Under the pieces are notes generated by a model, which was not told the DNA's origin, made no database searches, and saw nothing but the letters and a program-made list of their open reading frames with translations. Made by a program: the position numbers and the translations under genes. Shown piece after piece: positions 28,183-63,870 of a DNA stretch of 64,000 bases (positions are counted from its first letter, which is position 1; every line of letters begins with the position of its first letter). This DNA comes from Cordylochernes scorpioides (Eukaryota > Arthropoda > Arachnida > Pseudoscorpiones > Chernetidae), in the NCBI GenBank assembly GCA_030710605.1, contig CP092874.1, positions 42,590,965 through 42,654,964 of the forward strand. The letters are read 5' to 3'.

Positions 28183-28378
28183 ATTATCCAAATTTCAGGG
28201 TAGGCGCGCCTAACCGAGTTATGCAAATGATGTAAAATGCGCAGCTCTCGTGCGCACATGGAGTAAGATATAAGGGAAGGAACTTGCAGAAAGGACAGTA
28301 TTCGTGTCGTTATTTCTTCAAGGAAAATCATTCTATAAATTTTTTTCTTGTGTCAAAAGACACGTGTAATAACAGAGA

Positions 28379-29410
28379 ATGCCAGGTCATCGTAAACGGA
28401 GGCAGTTCAAGCAGACAGACGCTTTTACGAGGGGCATGGTGATCGGACTGAAAAGGGCAGGTTGGTCCATACGTCAAATCGCAGCTGATACACACCTTGG
28501 TGCGTCCACGGTGCACCGACTGTGGAGAAGATGGTTGGAACAAGAAAATGTGGCAATTTATAGGAATGTCGGTGCAACCAGAGTGACGTCAGCACGTGTG
28601 GATCGGCGTATCCTTCGACAAGCAGTGGCGGCCCCACAAGCCACTTGTACCGCCATCCTGCAACATGTGCAAGACACCCTAGGTCATTCCATCTCGACCA
28701 GAACCATTTCCCGTCGATTGGTTGCTAATGGCTTGCACTCATGCCGTCCGCTAAGAAGACTGCCATTGACCCCATCGAATAAGCGCCAACGTTTGGAATG
28801 GTGCCGGGCTAGATCGACGTGGATGACGGATTGGCACAGGGTCGTGTTCTCAGATGAGTCGCGTTTCTGCTTGTCCAGTGATAGTCGCCGTGTACGCGTG
28901 TGGCGTCGACGTGGAGAAAGGTCCAATCCGGCAGCAATTGTGGAACGCCTCACCGTGCGACAACGTGGAATCATGGTTTGGGGCGCAATCGCGTATGATT
29001 CCAGGTCACCTTTACTTCGTATTCAGGGCACTATGACGGCCCAACGATACGTTGATGATGTGCTGCGACCGGTGACACTCCCCTACCTTCAGGGGGTACC
29101 CAATGCCCTTTATCAGCAGGACAACGCCCGACCGCACACTGCTCGCCTTAGCCAACAAGCTCTGCAATATGTACAGATGCTTCCCTGGCCACCGTACTCT
29201 CCTGATCTCTCACCAATCGAGCACGTCTGGGACATCATTGGACGCCGTTTGCATGCCTTGCCACAGCCGCGTTCAGAAGACGAACTGTGGCAAATGGTTG
29301 AGAGGGAATGGAGAGCCATCCCTCAGGACGCCATCCGTACTCTGATTGACTCTCTACCTAGACGTGTTGCTGCGTGCATCGCCGTCCGCGGTGGTCCTAC
29401 TTGCTATTAA
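28379..29410 (+). CDS. Tc1-like transposase, intact (343 aa)
   Basis: Full-length DDE transposase that would cut and paste Tc1-a at TA sites. Residues ~14-55 form a helix-turn-helix (FTRGMVIGLKRAGWSIRQIA ... STVHRLWRRW). A second one follows at ~70-125 (TISRRLVANGL). Catalytic residues are D159 (VVFSDESRF), D248 (YQQDNARPHTA) and E281 (SPDLSPIEHVWD). The D248-E281 spacing is 32 residues, two fewer than the DD34E of classical Tc1. The start ATG at 28379 lies 196 bases inside the left repeat and gives the usual family length of about 340 residues. No stops or frameshifts are present. GC content is much higher than in the flanks. Confidence 0.95.
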   Translation: MPGHRKRRQFKQTDAFTRGMVIGLKRAGWSIRQIAADTHLGASTVHRLWRRWLEQENVAIYRNVGATRVTSARVDRRILRQAVAAPQATCTAILQHVQDTLGHSISTRTISRRLVANGLHSCRPLRRLPLTPSNKRQRLEWCRARSTWMTDWHRVVFSDESRFCLSSDSRRVRVWRRRGERSNPAAIVERLTVRQRGIMVWGAIAYDSRSPLLRIQGTMTAQRYVDDVLRPVTLPYLQGVPNALYQQDNARPHTARLSQQALQYVQMLPWPPYSPDLSPIEHVWDIIGRRLHALPQPRSEDELWQMVEREWRAIPQDAIRTLIDSLPRRVAACIAVRGGPTCY

Positions 29411-47424: not shown

Positions 47425-48360
47425 TTACAGGTTGTTTACTTTTTCTTCCACTTCTGGTATTCGAACATTATCTGCAACAGTCTTCTCAGTGGTGTTATTG
47501 TCAAAGTGCACTGCAGGTAAATATGCCGGTTTTAGTCTATGAATGGATATAGAGATATTCTTGCCGTTGATGTCAAGAACAAAATATCTTTCAATTCTTT
47601 CCATTATCCTGTATGGTCCTTGATAAGGTGGCTCAAATGCTTTTTTAACTCTCTCAATTCTCAAGAATACATATGAGCAATTATTAATGTCCTTATGAAA
47701 AAGAATTGCTCTTGATGTCTTAGATGATTTTTCTGGCTTCAAGTCTCTGATGTATTTGCAAAAATCATCAATGTAAGCATTAGAGGATGGAGTTTGTTTT
47801 GAACAATGAAAAATCGACCAGGGAGTTTGATGTTTGTTCCATAAACCATTTCAGTTGTAGAAAACTTTACATCTTATCGTATAGCTGCACGGAAACCCAA
47901 CAAGACTGTTGGTAACGTTTCTTTCCATCTCAAAGTATTGTGTGCTCTAATTGCAGTTTTCAATGTTCGATGAAATCTTTTTATTTTCTCATTACTTTGA
48001 GGATGGTATGGAGTAGTGTGTTGAATTTTAATTCCAAAGATGATTGCCAGTTCCTTAAAAACTGTTGAATCAAATTGCTTCGCACAGTTAGTAATGACAG
48101 TGGTAGGCATACCAAAGCGGACAATCCAGTTCTCATAAAATGCTTCTGCAAGGGTTTCTGCTTTGATACCTTTCAATGGAATAACTTCTGGCCAACCCTT
48201 AAAGCGATCAATGCATGTTAGACAGTAGAGGTGATCATTTGACGGTGGTAGTGGGCAGATACAATCAATGTGCACGAAACTAAATCTATCTGTCGTCTTC
48301 GGAAAAGTACCTATTTCAAATTTTGTATGCCTAGAAATCTTGTTAATTTGACAACCCATG
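47425..48360 (-). pseudogene. Gypsy-4 integrase
   Basis: 48359-47874 encodes GCQINKISRHTKFEIG and FSFVHIDCICPLPPSNDHLY (first catalytic Asp), GMPTTVITNCAKQFDS and PYHPQSNEKIKRFHRTLKTA. In active relatives the second block has Asp and the third has Glu; here they read Asn and Lys, so the catalytic triad is lost. 47742-47425 gives the C-terminal FEPPYQGPYRIMERIERYF and ISIHRLKPAYLP. A stop and frame change separate the two parts. Confidence 0.8.
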
Positions 48361-48479
48361 CATGTACGAGCCCATTATTGGACATTCTTCTTTATGTTTG
48401 TCCAAATGAGTCTTGCTGTCAATTTTGACGCTTGCCATGAATTAGCTGGAACATATTTTTCCTGAATTCTTTGGGGATG

Positions 48480-48900
48480 AATGGTCTAATATTGCTTGTT
48501 GAAGTAGCGCATCATAGTATTTTACCTGGTGGTAAAGAATATTGTTGAAACTTGAGGTTGGTGTGTTGTTTTAGAGATATCAACGCAGTTTTATTGATCT
48601 GTTTCAATGCTATATCATTGTAATCAATCATTGACATTTCTTCTATCCTTGATAATGTATCTGCTACAATGTTTCTCTTTCCATCAGCATTTTCAATATT
48701 TGTAGTGAATTGATATGTATATTGTAGATGCCTAAGAGGTCTTGGTGATGCCTTTTCACTCTTTTGAAGGAAGACATATTTTAAAAGCTTATGATCAGTG
48801 AAACTTTGAAGTCTCTTCCTTCCAGCATGTGTTTGAAGTTTTCAACAGAAAGGTAGATTGCCAATAGTTCAAGGTCATATGTGCTATAGGACTTCTGGGT
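48480..48900 (-). pseudogene. Gypsy-4 RNase H, downstream part
   Basis: Minus strand reads TQKSYSTYDLELLAIYLSVE then NFKHMLEGRDF, the central RNase H region of Ty3/gypsy pol with the E-L-L-A-I block. The start of the domain lies on the other side of the PLE insertion (about 50940-51000, STDSSNWAVGAVLQ). Confidence 0.7.
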
Positions 48901-48992
48901 ATCATGTAATTTTGCAAGGAACTCTTCCTAGTAAACTTTGAAATGAACCAGGCGATAAGGAAGATGGGTGTCTTTTATATAAAACGAGCGCA

Positions 48993-49022
48993 AGCTTTCG
49001 GGTAAAAACCCTTCTACAGGCG
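48993..49022 (-). ncRNA. Hammerhead-like hairpin, inverted PLE-3 end
   Basis: Minus strand reads CCTGTAGAAGGGTTTTTACC then CGAAAGCTTGCG. Stem II and GAAA are present; the box is CTGTAGA instead of CTGANGA and no GUH is seen. The plus-strand counterpart at 50846-50875 is identical in sequence. Confidence 0.45.
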
Positions 49023-49257
49023 GCTATCACATAGCAAGATGGATACCAATGGCAAGAGCTTCTCAAATATATATAGCAGAGGTAATTTGTATAAACAGCG
49101 TGAAAAGAAAGGAGATGCAAAGTAGACAAAAAAGCTATTAAACAAATATATATGGAGAAAAGGCTCGAGATTACATAGAAACTATTACATTAAAGCTTTA
49201 AGAGATACCAGCAAGGAAAACACCATAGATGTCAGGAATGTCTATTTTCCTATTTAC

Positions 49258-50667
49258 AGTGCTTACATATATGGCCTGCCCAAGGTTCACATACCAGGAA
49301 TCTCACTGCGCTCCATAATTTCCTATCACCTCTCTCCTGCTTATCCGTTATCTAAATATCTCTCCCACTTCCTCTCCCTTATCTTAGGTTCCCATAGAAG
49401 TTGTTACTCTGTTTCTAACACTCCCAGCTTTGTTAGTGAAGTTACTGCACTTCAACCCACACCCCACCATGTTATGTGTTCTTACGATGTGACTTCCCTG
49501 TACCTTAGCCTCCCGTATAACTTTATTACGGAAAGCATTAATCTTTTCCTTACTACGGTCAATTTAGATCCCCCCACCATCTCAACTATCACTCAACTTG
49601 TCAGCATTTGCCTAGATATGGATACTTTCACCTATAGACAGGACTATTACAAGCAGATTAGGGGCTCCCCTATGGGAAGCTCATTATCATATATAGCTGC
49701 AGAAATTGTTTTGACCCGCATCGATACCTGGATTAATCAAGTTCACCACTCAGACATCCAATTATGGCGTCGTTACGTCGACGAAGTTTTTTGCATTTGT
49801 GATTCCAGCCTGGAAAACACCATTCTTTCATCCCTTAATAGTTACCATCCGGACATTTCTTTCACCATAGAGCTAGAGAAAGAGCGGGCCATCACTTTCT
49901 TGGATGTGCTCGTCATTCGCTCTTATTGCTCATTCAACACTTCAGTATATTACAAAAAAGATTGTCCCCTTCATTACATTCATTTCAATTCTAATTGCCC
50001 AATTACCCATAAAATCAACATTGTAAAAACTCTCACAAAACGTGTCTATAACCACTTCTCCTTTCCTATTTTCAGAAAAATTGAAAATGAATTAATAATT
50101 TCCCATCTCACTGCTTCCTCTTTCCCTCTGTCCTTTATTGAGAGACATTCATATATTCCTGGTCCTCGGAAACCACCGGATATTTACAGATCAATATGTA
50201 CTCTTCCCTATTCCTCTCTGTCTGTTGCATTGCTTGTTCCCTTAAATCCTTTGGAATTCGAAGTTTTTTACAATAATAGCCCTAACCAACTAACTTCTTT
50301 AAGGCATTCAATCACTAAGTCCTGTACTCCACCTGACGTCCTTCTCTCTTCTGGCGCTGTCTACTCCGTCTCCTGTGAGCATTGCTCTGCCACTTATGTG
50401 GGCGAAACGGGTAGAACAGTTGCCACTAGAGTGTCGGAGCATCAGCGCAATATATCTAACTGTGACCCTAGATCCCTAATATACCAGCATATAGCCGATA
50501 TTGGTCACTCCTTCGACTTTCTCCATCCCACTGTTCACTACCTACGTATTCACAACCAACATCAACGATTGGTGCTAGAATCTATTATCTCTAAAACACC
50601 CAACAGCATAAATAGGAAAATAGACATTTCTGACATCTATGGTGTTTTCCTTGCTAGTATTTCTTAG
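49258..50667 (+). pseudogene. PLE-3 reverse transcriptase and GIY-YIG endonuclease (5'-truncated)
   Basis: An open frame of 469 codons without a stop; the first in-frame ATG is 49474, but homology starts before it. RT motifs: YIYGLPKVHIPG, MCSYDVTSLYLSLP (motif A), QIRGSPMGSSLSYIAAEI (motif B) and LWRRYVDEVFCICDS (motif C). In motif C the expected YVDD has become YVDE. FLDVLVIR follows. The C-terminal GIY-YIG domain reads GAVYSVSCEHCSATYVGETG then RTVATRVSEHQRN, with the conserved Tyr, Arg and Glu. The frame is intact but the N-terminal third of RT is missing, so an active protein is unlikely. Confidence 0.9.
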
Positions 50668-50845
50668 AGCTTTAATGTAATAGTTTCTATGTTATCTCGA
50701 GCCTTTTCTCCATGTATATTTGTTTAATAGCTTTTTTGTCCACTTTGCATCTTCTTTCTTTTCACGCTGTTTATACAAATCACCTCTGCTATATATATTT
50801 GAGAAGCTCTCGCCATTGGTATCCATCTTGCTATGTGATAGCCGC

Positions 50846-50875
50846 CTGTAGAAGGGTTTTTACCCGAAAGCTTGC
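50846..50875 (+). ncRNA. Hammerhead-like hairpin, 3' end of PLE-3
   Basis: CCTGTAGAAGGGTTTTTACC then CGAAAGCTTGCG, downstream of the GIY-YIG stop. Same features and doubts as the inverted copy. Confidence 0.45.
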
Positions 50876-50937
50876 GCTCGTTTTATATAAAAGACACCCA
50901 TCTTCCTTATCGCCTGGTTCATTTCATCATTTAATTT

Positions 50938-51250
50938 CTTGGAGTAAAAGGCTATGGGTTTCCAGCCATTCTCCTCATATTATTGAAGGACTGCTCCGAC
51001 TGCCCAATTCGAAGAGTCTGTGCTCAAAGACAGAGTAATGTCCATGTGTGTGTGTGTGTGTGTGGAATTTTTTTTTGTCCTTTTTTCTGGCACCTTTCAG
51101 GAATTCGGCTTGTGTTTCAGCTGCATCTTTTAGGTATCCTCTATAGAATTTTATCATACCTAGAAAGGTTCGTAAATCTTGTATTGTTTCAGGGGCTTTA
51201 TATTTTTGAATTGCCTTGGTTTTTGAGGGTAAAGGTCTTGATCCTTCTTT
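50938..51250 (-). pseudogene. Gypsy-4 RT connection and start of RNase H
   Basis: Minus strand reads APETIQDLRTFLGMIKFYRG-like sequence (RDLRTFLG block in an alternative frame), then LKDAAETQAEFLKGARKKDK and STDSSNWAVGAVLQ. A (GT)n microsatellite at 51045-51062 lies inside the former coding sequence and shifts the frame. Confidence 0.65.
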
Positions 51251-51255
51251 TGTGA

Positions 51256-51837
51256 TCAGATATATCCATGGAATTCCACTTCTTGCAATCGAAACTTTGA
51301 TTTATTGGCATTGATTCTAAGGCCATGCTTTGAAAGTCTTTCAAATATCATGTCCAAGTGGAATTTATGCTCTTCCTTGTTTTTGGAGGCTATTAGGATG
51401 TCATAAATGTATGGGAATACAAGGTCTAGGCTAAATAATACCTCATTGATAAATCTTTGGAAAGCTGCAGGTGCGTATCTGAGATTAAAACTCATTAGGT
51501 TGAATTCGAACAATCCAAATGGTGTTATTACAGCTGTTTTCTTCTTGTCTTCTTTAGTTATTGGGATTTGGTAATATGCCTTAAAAAGGTCAATTCTGGA
51601 AAATATTTTTTTTTCTCTCAATATATTATGAAATTCTTCTAATCTAGGAATGGGGTGCCGGTCAGGAATGGTTATATTATTTAGTCTTTGATAGTCTCCA
51701 CATGAACGGTACATGCAAACCTTTTTCAATGTCATGTGCAATGGGCTTTCCCATTGAGATTTGGATCGACGAATAATGTTATTTTCCAGCATATATTGGA
51801 ATTCTTGCTCTGCTATTCTGAGGCGTTTGGTGTCCAA
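51256..51837 (-). pseudogene. Gypsy-4 reverse transcriptase core
   Basis: A 193-codon open stretch covers most RT motifs: MLENNIIRRSKSQWESPLHM, YRSCGDYQRLN, RHPIPRLEEFHNIL, FSRIDLFKAYYQIPI (motif A), MSFNLRYAPAAFQRFINEVL and FPYIYDILIASKN. The last is the catalytic box, normally YIDD; the first Asp is replaced by Tyr. The copy is therefore catalytically dead even where the frame is open. Confidence 0.85.
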
Positions 51838-51985: not shown

Positions 51986-52234
51986 TTATATTTTTCCATG
52001 TATTTCTATTAGATGATTAAATTCATTTAGAAAGTCAGCATACAAAATTCTCTTATCAATTTTTGCAATTATAAATGGAAATGTGAAATCTCTACGCGGG
52101 CCCAAATCTATTTCAAGTAATTTTGTACCATAGGTATCAATTTTGGTATCAATTGCTGCATAGAGCTTGAGTTCAGCTTGCTTTTTGTCTTCACCTTTTG
52201 CGGGTATCAAGCTGACGTCAACACCACTGTCCAC
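51986..52234 (-). pseudogene. Gypsy-4 aspartic protease
   Basis: Begins MDSGVDVSLIPAKG, a degenerate D-S-G-A-D active-site box, followed by DTYGTKLLEIDLG and FLNEFNHLIEI. Position between gag and RT fits. The conserved Ala to Val change and the loss of flanking frame suggest decay. Confidence 0.7.
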
Positions 52235-52572
52235 AGAAAACGCAATCCCGTTTGTTTTTCCTGGACAAATTGGGCAAGATTTGCGGTAATGGATGGCTTG
52301 TTCAACAGCAGAGCTTACTACCGCTAATTCTGCGGTTTAACTCGATCGTTAAAACGGCCACTAGAGCTACCACTCTCGCGAGTTTTGCCACGTTGATTTA
52401 GTGTAAGTTTCTCAATTTGTAGTTCAAGAGATTCTATTTTTTTTTTAAGTTCGGTAGTGTTATTATTAGATTAATTAGTGCACCAAATTTCACCTGAAGG
52501 GTTTAGATAATAATTTTTGCCTGCCATTACAGCTTACTTATCCTAATCTTTCTCAATTGCAAAAATTATGCT

Positions 52573-52862
52573 TTAAATTGTCTGTGGAAGTTTTTCTAAC
52601 CAGATGGTTTTCATCATATTGATAGAAATGTCATCCGGAGACAATGAACGCAGTTTTTGCAGAAGCTGACTCGGCTTCATATCCCTTAGTTCTATTCCTG
52701 AAATTAGTTGACTGATACGGGAAGTTTCACTTTCCGCAAAGAGATTCAAAAGTCTTTCTTTAGCAAAATAATATTTATTTTCCTTTGGCGAAGTTATTAT
52801 GTCCCATAAGTTTTCAACATATTTAGGTTCTAACTGCGATATCAAATAGATGAAATATATGA
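52573..52862 (-). pseudogene. Gypsy-4 gag, C-terminal half
   Basis: Encodes YLISQLEPKYVENLWDIITS, then KERLLNLFAESETSRISQLI and DMKPSQLLQKLRSLSPDDI, the characteristic capsid-like gag of this gypsy lineage. It ends at the right where foreign sequence begins (52863). The missing N-terminal half is at 60692-60861. Confidence 0.85.
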
Positions 52863-53060
52863 AAAAATAGTACAAATGTGATATTGTACTGGGATAAGGT
52901 GCATAAATTAAGAAAAAGGCATTTCCCTATCGTGCAACTGAAAGCTGCTGATGGCTTGCGCCATCTATCGGAATAAATATAAAACTATTCTCGTTGATAT
53001 TTAATTATTCCAGAATTGGCTATTCTCTAATACCCATTCTTGCTTAATCAAGAAAAGCTA

Positions 53061-53102
53061 ACCACGTACGTGTTTCGGGCTGTTGGCCCTCATCAGCGTG
53101 GT
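53061..53102 (-). ncRNA. Minimal type I hammerhead ribozyme, core intact (HHR1)
   Basis: Read on the minus strand: ACCACG (stem I), CTGATGA (core), GGGC-CAACA-GCCC (stem II), GAAA (core), a minimal stem III (A-U and C-G around loop AC), GTA cleavage triplet, CGTGGT (stem I). All conserved positions are present. GUA satisfies the GUH rule. Confidence 0.85.
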
Positions 53103-53197
53103 GCAAGCTGTACCTAAACGACCAAAAAAATGGTCTTTAAGGCATCCTGAAAAATCATGAAACGGGTAGTTAAGGCTCGAATTGCGTGACAGCTTGC

Positions 53198-53239
53198 ACC
53201 ACGCTGAGGAGGGCCAACAGCCCTAAACGCGTCCGTTGT
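53198..53239 (+). ncRNA. Hammerhead ribozyme, inactivated (HHR2)
   Basis: Same architecture as HHR3. The box is CTGAGGA (position 7 is free, so acceptable), but the GAAA box is TAAA, removing the catalytic G12. Stem I is weakened (CGTTGT). Confidence 0.8.
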
Positions 53240-53533
53240 TAGCTTTTCTTGATTAATCTAGAAAGGGTATTTGGCCATTTCTGGAATATTTAAAAATCAA
53301 CGAGAATAGTTGATATTTATTCCGATAGATGGCGCAAGCCATCAGAAAATTTTAGTTGCACGTTAAGGAGATGCCTTTTTCTTAATTTATGCACCTTATC
53401 CCAGTACAATATCACATTTGTACTATTTTTCACATTGTGTAGCGTCCTCACGCAATTCTGGCCTTAACTACACGTTTCATGATTTTTCAGGATGCCTTAA
53501 TGACCATTTTTTGGTCGTTTAGGTACAGCTTGC

Positions 53534-53575
53534 ACCACGCTGATGAGGGCCAACAGTCCGAAACGCGTCCGTGGT
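53534..53575 (+). ncRNA. Minimal type I hammerhead ribozyme, core intact (HHR3)
   Basis: ACCACG (53534-53539), CTGATGA (53540-53546), stem II GGGC/GTCC with one G-U pair, GAAA (53560-53563), minimal stem III with loop GC, GTC cleavage triplet (cut expected after 53569), CGTGGT (53570-53575). An outer AGCT/AGCT pairing (53527-53530 and 53577-53580) extends stem I across a small internal loop. Confidence 0.88.
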
Positions 53576-53738
53576 TAGCTTTTCTTGATTAATCAAGAAA
53601 GGGGTATTTGACCAATTCTGGAATAATTAAAAATCAACGAGAATAGTTGATATTTATTCCGATAGATGGCGCAAGCCATCAGCAACTTTTAGTTGCACGA
53701 TAAGGAGATGCCTTTTTCTTAATAAATATATATATATA

Positions 53739-54095
53739 TGTTATGAATATTTTGTTGTTGTGTTGTTAGATAAAGGGTTGATAAGACAAAGGATCGATAA
53801 GATAAAGGGTCAGTGCAGTCGTGATAAAAAATGATAATTATTTACCGTCAAGTAGCTTTTATTTTCAATTACTTAACAAAAGATTACACATTAGTTATTT
53901 TCACATTACATAGAATTTATAAAGTTAATCCTATATTAGTGATTTAAAAGGATAGATATGTCAACTACGCATATTTACAACAAAACTGAAAGTCTTTCTA
54001 AAAACGATGATAACAAAAGTAAAATTATCAATGAATAAAATAAAATATATATTTTTTAAAATATAGAAATATTTGAGTTTTTAGATTATATAATA
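53739..54095 (-). repeat. Gypsy-5 3' LTR
   Basis: Plus strand starts TGTTATGAATATTTTGTTG and ends ATTATATAATA, next to CCCCCC (54099-54104). Matches 58920-59281. Confidence 0.85.
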
Positions 54096-54104
54096 TTTCC
54101 CCCC
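54096..54104 (-). promoter_or_regulatory. Gypsy-5 polypurine tract
   Basis: Minus strand GGGGGGAAA immediately before the 3' LTR. Confidence 0.65.
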
Positions 54105-55338
54105 TGTGAAAAAGATTTAAAAAAATTAAAATTCTAAAATAAAATAGGCAACACAGGTCTACAAAACTCAAAGTAGTTGTACCTTATAGCATATATATAT
54201 ATATATATCTCAGAGTTTTTTTTCCGAATCCCGATATATATATGCTATAAGGTACAACCTTTTTGAGTTTTGTAGACCTGTGTAATTAAAAATAATTAAT
54301 TAAACAAAATCAATAAATCTATAGAAATATTTAAAAATGGAACAATAAAAATCAATATCCACATTTTTTCAAATAAACAAAAGAAAGTTTGTTTACAAAT
54401 AATTTTTATAATTATGAAATTATAATAAAAGTATATATAAGAAGTGTAAATGATCAAGTCTCATGAAATATGGATATGAAGCAAAAAAGGTATTTAAAAT
54501 TTGAGTAATTATGATATTATGCTAGTTATACTTCAAAATATCAAAAAGCAGTAGAAAATGTTATTTTTACACAAGTGTAGCTCAAAAATAAATTGTTTCT
54601 GATATATTAACATTCAAATGTATGTGATATAATATATAAAGGTATTTATTAATAATGGTTGAGTAATGAAATGCTAATAGGGAGATGTATGGAGTGACAT
54701 TAAGTTATTTGTGAAGGCTTAAGAATTGGGGTTGATATTTGTTCTTCATTGTCCATGTCCAAAATATGGCCTTCCTGTAAAAAACATAGTTTATCATGAA
54801 TATCTATTAATTTTGTGTTAAAATTTTGGTTTACTATTAAGTCATTTTCTATGTTGGTGCTATAGTGAAGTAAAAAATCTGCTTCTGGGTAAAATAATTT
54901 AAGCTTATTGGAGAGTATAATTTCTGTTTGTTTTCTTTGGGGTAAATTGGATTTATTAATTTAATATGTGACTGGAAAAAGTTGTTTTAAAATTGTAAAT
55001 AGGCCTATATATCTTTGTGTTAATTTACCAGTGTTTGGATAAATAAATATTTTTACTAATACCTGATCTCCTTCTTTAAAATGGGTTCTGGGTGTTTAAT
55101 ATCATAAAGTTGTTTGTTGTGTTCATGGGATTTTATGGTTCTTTCAATGGCTAATTTCCTTGCCTTTTCTATTGGTGTATGTGTTTCTGTGTCATGTTCT
55201 ATATACTGTGGTTGTATTCCATAGTATAAGAATTTAGGTGTGAAGCCTGTTGTAGTATTACTGTTTCATTATAGCTTTCCGTAATTTTAGGAATATATTT
55301 TGTCCAAGGAATCTTTGAATTAGCATTATATTCACATC
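54105..55338 (-). other. Gypsy-5 3' region, mostly non-coding, with a palindrome
   Basis: Contains an inverted repeat (54151-54281) whose right half resembles repeat R (CCCGATATATATATGCTATA then AGGTACAAC). The segment 54700-55330 should hold the integrase C-terminus, but the frame is too broken to read. Confidence 0.45.
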
Positions 55339-56120: not shown

Positions 56121-56486
56121 CTACCTTGTGGGTTTTTTTTTGATCCATTTCAAAGGTAATTGATCTCTGTGTAAAGTAAAATGTATGTTGTGGAGATATG
56201 TATGAAACCTTTGTACTGAATTAATGATAGCTAATGTCTCAATTTCTGAGGCAGTATAATTATTTTCATACGGGTGAAGTTTTCTTGAAAAATAACGTAT
56301 TGTGTGTAAAATGCCTTGTTCAACTGGTTGTTTAAGAACTCCTGCTACTCCTAGACTTGACACGTCTGTGAATAAATGGCAAGGTTTTGATGGGGTCATA
56401 AATATATAGTACAGGTTGTGATATGAGTGAATTTTTAAGTGTTTGGAAGGCTTGTTCATGTTTCGCACTCCATAACCAAGGAGCAT
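56121..56486 (-). pseudogene. Gypsy-5 RNase H
   Basis: Reads KPCHLFTDVSSLGVAGVLKQ, ILHTIRYFSRKLHPYENNYT, ASEIETLAIINSVQRFHTYL and FTLHRDQLPLKWI. The first Asp and Glu are present. The usual TDH is HRDQ. It overlaps the end of the RT frame by a frameshift. Confidence 0.75.
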
Positions 56487-57240
56487 TTTTTAACAAAAGT
56501 TCATTCAAAGGTGACCTAATTTGCGCATAATGGGGAATAAATTTATTATAAATATATATGGTGCCTAAACATTTCTGTAAGGTTTTAATATTATATGGTC
56601 TATTTAATTTTAAAGTTGCTTCAATATTTGTGTTATTTGGTGTATACTTTCCTGAGTTAATAGTGTATCCTAAGAATTGTATTTCTTTTTGTAAAAAATT
56701 GCATTTATTGAGATTGAGCTTTATATCCTCTTGTTCGAATATACCTAATAGGTCATCTAAATGTTTAATGTGTTCTTCATAAGTTTTGGAGTGTATAATA
56801 ATATCCTCAAAATAATTTAAGGCATAGTGTATGTTATGTTTAGTGAAAACTGAATTCATAATCCTTTCAAATTGTGAAGGTGCATTTTTTAGACCATATG
56901 GAAATCTCCCATTCATAACATCCTAATTGTGTTACAAATGAAGTTTTATGTCTATTTCTTTCATCTATGGGTATATGCCAGTATGCATTTTTAACATCTA
57001 GAATAGTATAATTTTTGACTGTGATAACCTATCTATAATTTGTTCTATAAGTGGAATTGGGGTATGTTCTGGAACTGTTTTTTGATTAAGTTTTCTATAA
57101 TCTATACAGAGTCTTGTGGGGTGATTTGGGGCATCAGAATTTTTATTCACTAATAATGCAGGAGAACTATAGGGGCTAGATGAGGGTCTAATAATATCAT
57201 ATTTTAATAATTCAGTTATTTGTTTTGTATTTCAGCATTA
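56332..57240 (-). pseudogene. Gypsy-5 reverse transcriptase
   Basis: An upstream fragment (about 57230-56940, frame broken) has IIRPSSSPYSSPALLVNKN, LCIDYRKLNQKTVPEHTPIP and an altered motif A. The open stretch 56916-56332 has FPYGLKNAPSQFERIMNSVF and YALNYFEDIIIHSKTYEEH, where YFDD has become YFED. LNLNKCNFLQKEIQFLGYTI then follows. The changed catalytic box and frame breaks indicate an inactive copy. Confidence 0.8.
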
Positions 57241-58919: not shown

Positions 58920-59281
58920 TGTTATGAATATTTTTTGTTTTTGTTAGATAAAGGGTTGATAAGACAAAGGATCGATAAGATAAAGGGTTGGCGCAGTCGT
59001 GATAAAAAAATATAATTATTTACCGTCAAGTAGCTTTTATTTTCAATTACTTGAGGAAAGATTACACATTAGTTATTTTCACATTATATAGAATTTATAA
59101 AGTTAATCCTATATTAGTGATTTAAAAGGATAGATATGTCAACTACGCATATTTACAACAAAACTATACAACAAAACTGAAAGTCTTTCTAAAAACGATG
59201 ATAACAAAAGTAAAATTATCAATGAATAAAATATATATTCTTTAAAATATAGAAATATTTGAGTTTTTAGATTGTATAATA
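58920..59281 (-). repeat. Gypsy-5 5' LTR
   Basis: Matches 53739-54095. No TGG-type primer site follows it on the minus strand (it reads ATAAGCCGACAGG), so the priming tRNA is unknown. Confidence 0.8.
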
Positions 59282-60691
59282 TATATATATGGTAATTTAA
59301 ACTAACAACCCCATATTGTATATAACTTATAACAAGATTTTCATGTTGTATATAGAAACACATCTGTAAATGATTATACACATGATTGACATGTGTCATT
59401 ACATCATCATATGTAATGTACTTTGTACAAACTGAGGATAAATAAATAAAACTCTGTAATAGATTAAGAGTTGAGCTAAAGCAAAAGGTCAAAAACGTCT
59501 AAAATCGAGATAGATTCAGAAGTCCAAAAACAAGGTCTAAAGATGGAAACTGCCACGGAGCAAGTGTCCAATTTCGCCAGACGATCCACACTCTTCGCAT
59601 CTGTTGAAATGCAATACTCCCTTTCTCGGGAAAGATATATAAGGCCCCCGTCATAGTCACTTGACAGTCACTTCACCATCTGCGCCCTCATCAGCCTGCT
59701 GTGCTTGGACAACCTCCACCGGCACCCATGGCTCTACCTATGGATATTTCAACTCCTGTACCAGCGCCCCCCCGCCCCATCTCGGAGAAGCCTAGTAATG
59801 GCCCCACGGCACAAACTGCGCCTCAGCCTGCTAAGCCGACGCCGCCTACTCCCCACAGGAAGGAGTCAATCCCAGGCCTCATAACATAAACGCTTCCACT
59901 GCCTCCCCCTTTGACCAAGGAGGAGAAGCAGCAGGAAGAGCTGGAGTTTCAGTGCGAGGCTCAATTGTGTGACTTGATAGAGAAACTGAATTGGGAACAG
60001 GCCCTGGAGCCCCTGTTCGAGGATGGGATGGAAGAAAATGAGGTCCCATTTGCGGTAATTTGGCCCGAGTGTAGGGAGAAACTCCTCACGTATGTCTCAC
60101 GTAGACATAAAACCCATTTTTGCCTAGTTTCTCGGCACTGTCGCTGAGCATGCTCGCGACTGCCACCCAATTATTCGAAAGGGATTGTCCGAGGTAAGGC
60201 TGGCTCTGGGCTCCTGACAGAATCAATAAGATTGTAAATATTTCCCATTAACTCTTGATGGAGTGTAATTATTGACTTGATAGTCAATAAAGTTTATTTT
60301 AATTGTCAAAATTGTCGCTTCACCATCTGCGTGAGCCCCTCGTCGGTTGTACCCCAGGTCCACCTCATCCACCATGTAGACCAGTAAGAACTCTTCTATC
60401 TCCATCTTTCGCTCCTAGCTCTACTTTTATCTGTTCACGGAACTTTCTTAGTGCAACTGTGTCTTCGTTTTTTTGTGTATGGACAATCCCAAGCTTTCCA
60501 CTCTGCCTCGACCACGACTGCCTGTGCTTTATGAGAACTGTAAAAGGTCTTCCAAGGTGCAGAGAGGTACTGGAAAACTCCTCATCCTGACTGTTCCTCT
60601 CGGTTAACACAGTATAGCGAGAGTCGACAGGATTCTGCAAGAGTCAACAGGGACTCACACCATAGTCAAGTCGACAGGATATCTTCACCAC
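59282..60691. other. Unidentified insertion in gypsy-4 gag
   Basis: Right part of the block between the two gag halves. 59540-60690 is GC-richer than the flanks and contains a TATA-like GATATATAAGG (about 59633), a proline-rich frame and an AATAAA near 60286. The string CTTCACCATCTGCG occurs at both 59671 and 60310. The element type is not recognised. Confidence 0.4.
59701..60147 (+). pseudogene. Proline-rich unknown protein, one internal stop
   Basis: A single frame with one stop (59887-59889). Before it is a low-complexity Pro/Ala stretch (PAPMALPMDISTPVPAPPRP). After it comes an acidic helical stretch TKEEKQQEELEFQCEAQLCD then LIEKLNWEQALEPLFEDGME and ENEVPFAVIWPECREKLLTY. I do not recognise the family. 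The context (inside nested repeats) suggests a mobile-element protein, possibly gag-like. Confidence 0.35.
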
Positions 60692-62129: not shown

Positions 62130-62480
62130 TATATTGAATGAAGAAAAAAATCTATCTCCTTATCGTGCAACTGAAAGTTGCTGATGACTTACAATTCATT
62201 TGCACAATAAAGAGATGCCATTTGTTCTTTATTAATCTATACACCTTATCCCAGTACTATTATCACATTTGTATCATTCTTTCAAACGTATATTAAGTAA
62301 TATGAAAAAAAAAAGGCATCACCTTATCGTGCAACTGAAAGTTGCTGATGGCTTGCGATATCTATCGGAATAAATATAAACTATTTTCCTTGTTTTTTAA
62401 TTTTAATGACGCAAGCCATCAGCCTTATGCACCTTGTCCCAGTACAATATTACATCTGTACTATATTTTTCGTGGAATGA
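62130..62480. repeat. Retrozyme-like repeat fragments without ribozyme
   Basis: Two or three partial units: CTTATCGTGCAACTGAAAGT with TTGCTGATGGCTTGCGATATC, and ATGCACCTTGTCCCAGTACA near 62425. The hammerhead segment is missing in all. Confidence 0.7.
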
Positions 62481-63594: not shown

Positions 63595-63599
63595 ATGTG

Positions 63600-63870
63600 A
63601 AAAATTAGTACAAATGTAATATTGTACTGGGATAAGGTGCATAAATTAAGAAAAAGGCTTCTTCTTATCGAGCAACTGAAAGTTGCTGATGGCTTGCGCC
63701 ATCTATCGGAATAAATATCAACTATTCTCGTTGATTTTTAATTATTCCAGAATTGGCCAAATACCCATTCTTGATTAATCAAGAAAAGCTAACCACGGAC
63801 GCGTTTCGGGCTGTTGGCCCTTATCAGCGTGGTGCAAGCTGTACCTCAACGATTTATATTTTTGTTTAAC
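63600..63870 (-). repeat. Retrozyme-like unit with ribozyme, isolated copy
   Basis: Same segment order as the inverted unit at 52863-53110: TAGTACAAATGTAATATTGT, GATGGCTTGCGCCATC, the ribozyme. It then departs at about 63845. Confidence 0.8.
63792..63833 (-). ncRNA. Hammerhead ribozyme with G8A change (HHR4)
   Basis: Minus strand: ACCACG, CTGATAA, GGGC-CAACA-GCCC, GAAA, minimal stem III, GTC, CGTGGT. Identical in plan to HHR3, but CTGATGA has become CTGATAA. G8 acts in general acid catalysis and pairs with C3, so this copy should be dead. Confidence 0.82.

Follow-up and report, generated by a model that had tools for sequence, protein, structure and literature searches.

A 64-kb stretch of the genome of the pseudoscorpion Cordylochernes scorpioides, taken from contig C12 and called the window below, contains a 336-bp repeat with hammerhead ribozymes (HHRs). 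The repeat is part of a short bipolar insertion, in which a minus-strand arm lies head to head with 1.6 plus-strand units, and this locus is probably a non-autonomous animal retrozyme insertion mobilised by the machinery of Penelope-like elements (PLEs). It belongs to a genome-wide family whose insertions have two fixed termini, one with a tail and one without, as do the PLEs of the same genome; they are flanked by target duplications, their arms meet at variable junctions, and most multi-unit sequence variants extend across both arms. Self-cleavage of the transcripts, RNA circles and the action of a PLE enzyme would connect these observations.

The window locus

The initial annotation described two 42-nt type I hammerheads on the plus strand, HHR2 and HHR3, exactly 336 bp apart, and read them as a simple direct dimer. 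Positions and spacing were confirmed, but the locus is instead a bipolar insertion composed of an inverted arm and a tandem arm (Table 1); the inverted arm, the fixed outer ends and a minus-strand hammerhead with an intact core (HHR1) had been overlooked. HHR3 has, as claimed, the full core and a GUC site (stem I ACCACG/CGUGGU; CUGAUGA; stem II GGGC/GUCC with loop CAACA; GAA; stem III AC-GC-GU), the cleavage nucleotide predicted from the motif being the C at 53569. HHR2 carries the G12U change that was claimed. It also has G at position 7, a variable one, and has lost one pair of stem I, so that it should be inactive. Release of a 336-nt unit by cleavage at both hammerheads, which had been proposed, is not expected at this locus because HHR2 lacks G12.

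A strict scan for the core and three stems was run on 337,704 bases (the window plus partly overlapping loci). Inside the window it matched HHR1 and HHR3 only, and it matched nothing in 20 windows shuffled base by base in 500-base blocks. The topology is type I, not the type III of plant long terminal repeat (LTR) retrozymes. In the covariance-model search no Rfam model matched the window at its gathering score, and under relaxed conditions Hammerhead_HH9 matched HHR3 (E 0.003) and HHR1 (E 0.021) with scores below its gathering score of 52 (bits in Table 1). Stem III is nearly absent (2 bp closed by a 2-nt loop, forming the palindrome ACGCGU), which suggests that the hammerheads act as dimers; isolated hammerheads may need dimer pairing through this palindrome. 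When 44-nt hammerheads are folded in isolation, the minimum-energy structures lack the catalytic fold, and that of HHR3 is no better than shuffles (z -0.04); folding programs are unable to form a stem III of 2 bp closed by a loop of 2 nt.

The repeat contains no reading frame of 150 amino acids (aa) or more, the size range covered by the listing of frames, in agreement with the initial annotation, and the GC content of 52001-54000 is 35.6%. The two plus units are 94% identical, to be compared with a mean difference of 1.2% from the consensus in young genomic copies (see below), so the window copy is probably old.

Table 1. Coordinates of the retrozyme, hammerhead and PLE features of the window
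Feature	Position	Strand	Remarks
Whole retrozyme insertion, bipolar (inverted + tandem arm)	52860..53723		end motifs, arm alignments
Minus-strand arm	52860..53189	-	tail end (unit ~245) on the outside, ending in TTTGTACTATTTTTTCA on the minus strand
First plus unit	53189..53524	+	336 bp, degenerate; repeat alignment
Second plus unit	53525..53723	+	stops at the no-tail end, unit 198, ending in CCTTTTTCTTAAT
Inner head-to-head junction of the arms	53189..53190		unit 260 joined to unit 1
HHR1	53061-53102	-	intact core, GUA site; predicted cut after 53067; strict scan; Rfam HH9 22.0 bits
HHR2	53198-53239	+	42 nt; presumed inactive (G12U, stem I mismatch); missed by strict scan
HHR3	53534-53575	+	42 nt; intact core, GUC site; predicted cut after 53569; strict scan; Rfam HH9 24.6 bits
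PLE	48912..50926	+	frame 49126-50667; itself bipolar, tail end left, no-tail end right
Second unit copy, one-armed	63598..63852	-	tail end left; HHR 63792-63833 has G8A
Decayed fragments of the retrozyme unit	62146..62469		sequence match

A dispersed retrozyme family

In the 2.62-Gb assembly, the exact 35-nt intact core occurs 8,772 times (4,426 + 4,346), and the reversed pattern used as a control does not occur. A DNA search with the unit, in which the best 40 of 7,659 first-look candidates were scored, gave 85 matches of 91-100% identity. Units are 336-341 bp long (consensus 338 nt), with up to 8 units in an arm. From 47 loci, all of them best-scoring matches, we assembled 38 elements, a selection that favours long arrays. 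Their 68 full units differ from the consensus by 1.2% on average, and the core and GUC are kept in 59 of the 68. Folded as a circle, the consensus RNA has a minimum free energy of -113.7 kcal/mol (z -8.2 against 60 shuffles) with 64% of its bases paired; the window unit folded as a linear RNA has a z of -5.57. The retrozyme assignment of the initial annotation, and the further tandem copies that it expected elsewhere in the genome, were both borne out: frameless units of this size carry type I hammerheads, cores are dispersed by the thousand, arrays range from dimers to multimers, the RNA is self-paired and PLEs are present in the genome. Satellite DNA was considered and rejected, as the 38 elements are short insertions on many contigs (median 1.1 kb) and 100 cores of contig C1 represent 79 loci.

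At C7:41188526-41192062, at least 8 minus-strand units show alternating variants (the second like the fourth, the third like the fifth), which may reflect a later tandem duplication or a dimeric template. A different sequence family is represented by another intact type I hammerhead near a PLE copy (L041:89-132, plus strand; CCTAGG / CTGACGA / GGGCCATTAGCCC / ACC-AC-GGT).

Two fixed termini and one tail

At their outer ends the insertions show the 3' side of the unit, and two classes of end occur, a no-tail end at unit 193-206 (ending in CTTTTTCTTAAT) and a tail end at unit 240-251 (with the terminal motif of the window's minus-strand arm). Both outer ends could be classified in 27 of the 38 elements, and 25 of these 27 have one tail and one no-tail end (p 5.6e-6 against an expectation of 0.5). 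The two exceptions are one tail/tail element and one no-tail/no-tail element, the latter a composite on C7.

Matching flanks of at least 8 bases were present in 22 of 25 elements, compared with 34% of 300 swapped pairs, and the longest match averaged 11.8 bases compared with 6.1 in swapped pairs; AT-rich targets inflate such matches in elements and swapped controls alike. The target duplications are about 8-12 bp long and so exceed 4 bp, a criterion for metazoan non-LTR retrozymes. The inner junctions are variable: each of the 33 joins a different pair of unit positions, with an overlap of 0-4 nt in 20, of 10 and 18 nt in two, a gap of 1-4 nt in 4, and a gap of 11-35 nt in 7, where some gaps are plainly unaligned unit ends.

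We also looked at cores of contig C1 without score selection. The first 100 listed cores form 79 loci, 68 with one exact core and 11 with more; neighbouring cores at most 1 kb apart were on the same strand in 14 cases, minus-then-plus in 6 and plus-then-minus in 1. Of the first 15 single-core loci of C1, 11 were examined; three multi-core loci in that stretch (one of them bipolar) were left out. Three of the 11 are copies of a larger repeat, six are apparently one-armed, and two are bipolar with a tail at one end and none at the other. All eight non-composite elements end at, or a few bases from, unit ~198 or ~245. The three copies of the larger repeat, which is dispersed and includes a retrozyme piece with an intact core (L076-L078, at C1:24850, 289150 and 405900), are 96-99% alike over about 1.3 kb; in these the retrozyme sequence is spread by another element, and some of the exact cores counted above thus lie within other repeats.

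A second, related retrozyme family follows the same rule. Its first member, at L052, is about 80% similar to the first family across the ~90 nt that surround the hammerhead, and a search for this family (best 40 of 2,487 candidates scored) gave 150 matches. All six elements analysed (L052 and L071-L075) are bipolar, with ends in TTTATTTTTAAT and CTATTGTTTTTTCA, and all six have exactly one tail. As L071-L075 were chosen for matches on both strands, their bipolarity is a consequence of this choice; the one-tail rule is not. The hammerhead of this family has a GUU site and carries compensatory changes, G-C to C-G in stem II and A-U to U-A in stem I.

Penelope-like elements of the same genome

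The initial annotation placed PLE copies with reverse transcriptase and GIY-YIG domains in the window. One PLE-type frame was found, with weak matches (RVT_1 18.3 bits, GIY-YIG 18.6 bits, both under the Pfam cut-offs); no search was made for additional copies within the window. This PLE is nested in a minus-strand LTR-type pol gene (47874-51837), which has its integrase core on one side and its reverse transcriptase on the other.

A genome search with this frame (best 84 of 58,705 candidates scored) revealed several open frames of about 790-800 aa and several copies in inverted pairs. The 23 PLE loci examined (L031-L053) contain 18 insertions; both ends are in view in 10 of them, and all 10 have exactly one tail. 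Seven of the ten, including the window PLE, belong to family A (tail ~25 nt), two to family C (tail ~32 nt; target duplications ATAGTGATC and CACACACA), and one, read by eye, to family B (tail ~70 nt). The three families have in common a hammerhead-like motif, CUGUNGAAGGG...CCCGAAAGC (for example L051 5449, plus strand), in which the canonical CUGANGA is replaced by CUGUNGA (U at A6). Its conservation across PLE families suggests that it is perhaps a working variant. At L047:3279-3336, the end of a PLE insertion adjoins a retrozyme fragment (unit 240-189, 81%), and PLEs and retrozymes may therefore have AT-rich target sites in common, or the one may insert into the other.

Termini of this kind have been described for PLEs. 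In a lizard PLE, reverse transcription begins at two neighbouring internal positions, which agree with the ends and the tail of genomic copies, the tail is called a signature unique to PLEs, and the protein cuts and extends both target strands at AT-rich DNA (PMC11167929, accessible text). Rotifer PLEs, as presented in the accessible part of PMC3846280, are mostly head to head, with an optional 31-bp tail at one inverted pseudo-LTR (pLTR) and duplications of 8-10 bp. The initial annotation had named PLEs as presumed helpers. That suggestion gains structural support because retrozyme and PLE insertions have the same one-tail, two-site termini; copying by a PLE enzyme itself would account for them.

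Template of the insertions

Sequence variants were compared in 189 units, counting substitutions outside two homopolymer stretches, with a control in which units were shuffled among elements 200 times. Sixty-four variants were common to all covering units of their element, 152 belonged to a single unit and 21 lay in between; in the shuffled control the number present in all units was 1.2 on average and 5 at most. Of the multi-unit variants testable in both arms, 57 of 66 were found in both, as would be expected of a single circular RNA that a PLE enzyme copies from the two target strands. This genomic evidence suggests that, as a rule, the two arms of an insertion derive from one kind of template.

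These results bear on an unlikely alternative, according to which a PLE enzyme copies a linear multimeric transcript and the hammerheads only trim. Tandem parents would indeed yield multimeric transcripts, 21 variants are limited to part of the units of their element, and a lizard PLE was inserted in vitro with no need of HHR cleavage, according to the accessible text of PMC11167929. However, an array copied in this way would pass on the private changes of each parent unit in order, the variants common to all covering units far outnumber those of the shuffled control, and most multi-unit variants span both arms.

Mechanism and alternatives

Copying of an RNA circle by PLE machinery could proceed as follows. 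Transcripts of tandem units would self-cleave at their hammerheads, which may act as dimers, and a host ligase would close the 338-nt units into circles. The PLE reverse transcriptase/GIY-YIG endonuclease would make cuts in the two strands of an AT-rich target, staggered by about 8-12 nt, and each target 3' end would prime copying of the circle at unit ~198 or ~245, for one or more rounds. The two cDNAs would then be linked head to head at a point that varies, usually through microhomology of 0-4 nt; if only one arm were made, a 5'-truncated one-armed copy would result. A stronger version of this proposal, which we regard as evenly balanced between right and wrong, is that retrozymes are obligate parasites of the PLE complex. 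A complex of two subunits would engage one ribozyme-made circle and cut both target strands, and rolling-circle reverse transcription would extend both, each subunit beginning at a different one of the two fixed sites, so that every complete insertion would be bipolar with exactly one tail.

A PLE mechanism suits the retrozyme termini better than does satellite growth, a DNA transposon or mobilisation by a long interspersed nuclear element (LINE). Non-coding elements of other kinds are moved by LINEs, and copying primed at the target gives rise to fixed 3' ends; with inverted arms produced by twin priming, a LINE could thus be the mobiliser. This is improbable, because both outer ends here are fixed 3' sites and obey the one-tail rule of PLEs from the same genome. 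It is about as improbable that the units are solo pLTRs of a PLE family and no independent element. They resemble PLEs in terminal behaviour and in having a hammerhead upstream of the two sites, but the unit shows no similarity to the ends examined in PLE families A, B and C, apart from separate retrozyme fragments such as the one that abuts a PLE end at L047; the window PLE frame matches diverged pieces (29-37% identity) in just 2 of the 38 retrozyme regions, and the hammerhead-like motifs of the PLEs have CUGUNGA in place of CUGANGA. A fold-back DNA transposon whose long inverted repeats happened to include hammerheads would have inverted arms, fixed outer ends and target duplications, but is hardly credible, being contradicted by the asymmetric ends (~198 and ~245), the varying numbers of units per arm (up to 8), the variable inner junctions and the existence of one-armed copies.

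Several points weigh against mobilisation of RNA circles by PLEs. First, 11 of the 38 elements do not have two classifiable ends: six miss an outer end, and the other five end elsewhere or run off the stretch (positions 84, 222, 228, 331 and 336). Second, the 38 elements are the best-scoring ones, biased to long arrays, and the bipolar form may not be the commonest, since 6 of the 11 single-core places look one-armed and 68 of the 79 C1 loci have a single core. Third, no sequence common to retrozyme units and PLE ends was found in families A, B and C beyond the separate retrozyme fragments, and the two start sites are 47 nt apart in the retrozyme, compared with ~25-32 nt in PLE families A and C and ~70 nt in family B. 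Fourth, the PLE label of the window frame depends on sub-cut-off reverse transcriptase and GIY-YIG matches together with the termini, and self-cleavage and circles are predictions. Finally, 9 of the 66 multi-unit variants are confined to one arm, the 21 intermediate variants occur in some units only, the arms of the element at C6:35124898 differ, and variants common to all units are also compatible with a linear transcript of a homogeneous array.

Relation to known elements

The family resembles the metazoan non-LTR retrozymes (Cervera and de la Pena 2020, PMC7229834), which have type I hammerheads, low-GC tandem units of ~170-400 bp arranged as dimers to multimers, self-paired RNA, and PLEs in the genome; the very short stem III recalls the amphibian dimeric ribozymes. 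In the accessible text of that article we found no mention of bipolar insertions, of a pair of fixed asymmetric ends or of a helper signature. From the descriptions given there, the axolotl and newt retrozymes (satellite repeats of ~330-350 bp) are similar in unit size, in their weak palindromic stem III and in working better as dimers, whereas the pseudoscorpion copies are dispersed short insertions, many of them bipolar. Plant LTR retrozymes are likewise ribozyme-flanked non-autonomous retroelements, but according to the same text they differ by their type III hammerheads, LTRs, primer binding site and polypurine tract, size of ~700 bp and 4-bp duplications. With PLEs, as described in the accessible parts of PMC11167929 and PMC3846280, the family has in common head-to-head inverted arms, a tail at one end, AT-rich targets, duplications of ~8-10 bp and a hammerhead upstream of the start sites. 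It differs from them in that the unit has no reverse transcriptase or endonuclease frame (of at least 150 aa) and no sequence in common with the PLE ends examined; the tails of PLE families A and C are also shorter than the 47 nt of the retrozyme.

Neighbouring features of the window

The retrozyme insertion ends 40 bp ahead of a putative LTR at 53763. Direct repeats at 53763-54096 and 58941-59282, 5.2 kb apart and 96-100% identical, flank a frame that matches RVT_1 (56332-56922) and are probably the LTRs of one element. A hairpin resembling a miniature inverted-repeat transposable element lies at 54151-54283, with inverted 50-nt arms that are 94% complementary and enclose an AT repeat; most miRNA and sRNA matches of the relaxed Rfam search sit on it. 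An open 345-aa frame of a Tc1/mariner-type transposase, with HTH_Tnp_Tc3_2 and DDE_3 matches, is present at 28373-29410. The window also encodes a KY-type protein that matches a C. scorpioides record with 100% identity across 97% of its length.

Significance

We found no literature report that joins a hammerhead ribozyme with a pseudoscorpion, and a broader search on arachnids gave nothing relevant among the entries listed. Animal retrozymes have been described as tandem repeats for which a PLE helper is likely but unproven (PMC7229834, PMC7761336, PMC11722881, PMC8969392, in their accessible parts), and the grounds given there are co-occurrence, common type I hammerheads and the tandem layout. 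No report of a link between retrozymes and PLEs through tails or termini was found among the papers listed, judged by title and the opening of the abstract, in a library with few subscription papers and no preprints. What is new here is how the retrozyme inserts, with fixed two-site termini and a one-tail rule. Retrozymes are now placed in pseudoscorpions, and a structural mark of PLE reverse transcription is now present in two retrozyme families beside PLEs of the same genome, so that the question of the retrozyme helper becomes directly testable at two named start sites. If the stronger version of the proposal is true, copying of an RNA circle primed from both target strands would be a distinct route of integration, and the tail rule would name the helper of animal retrozymes in general.
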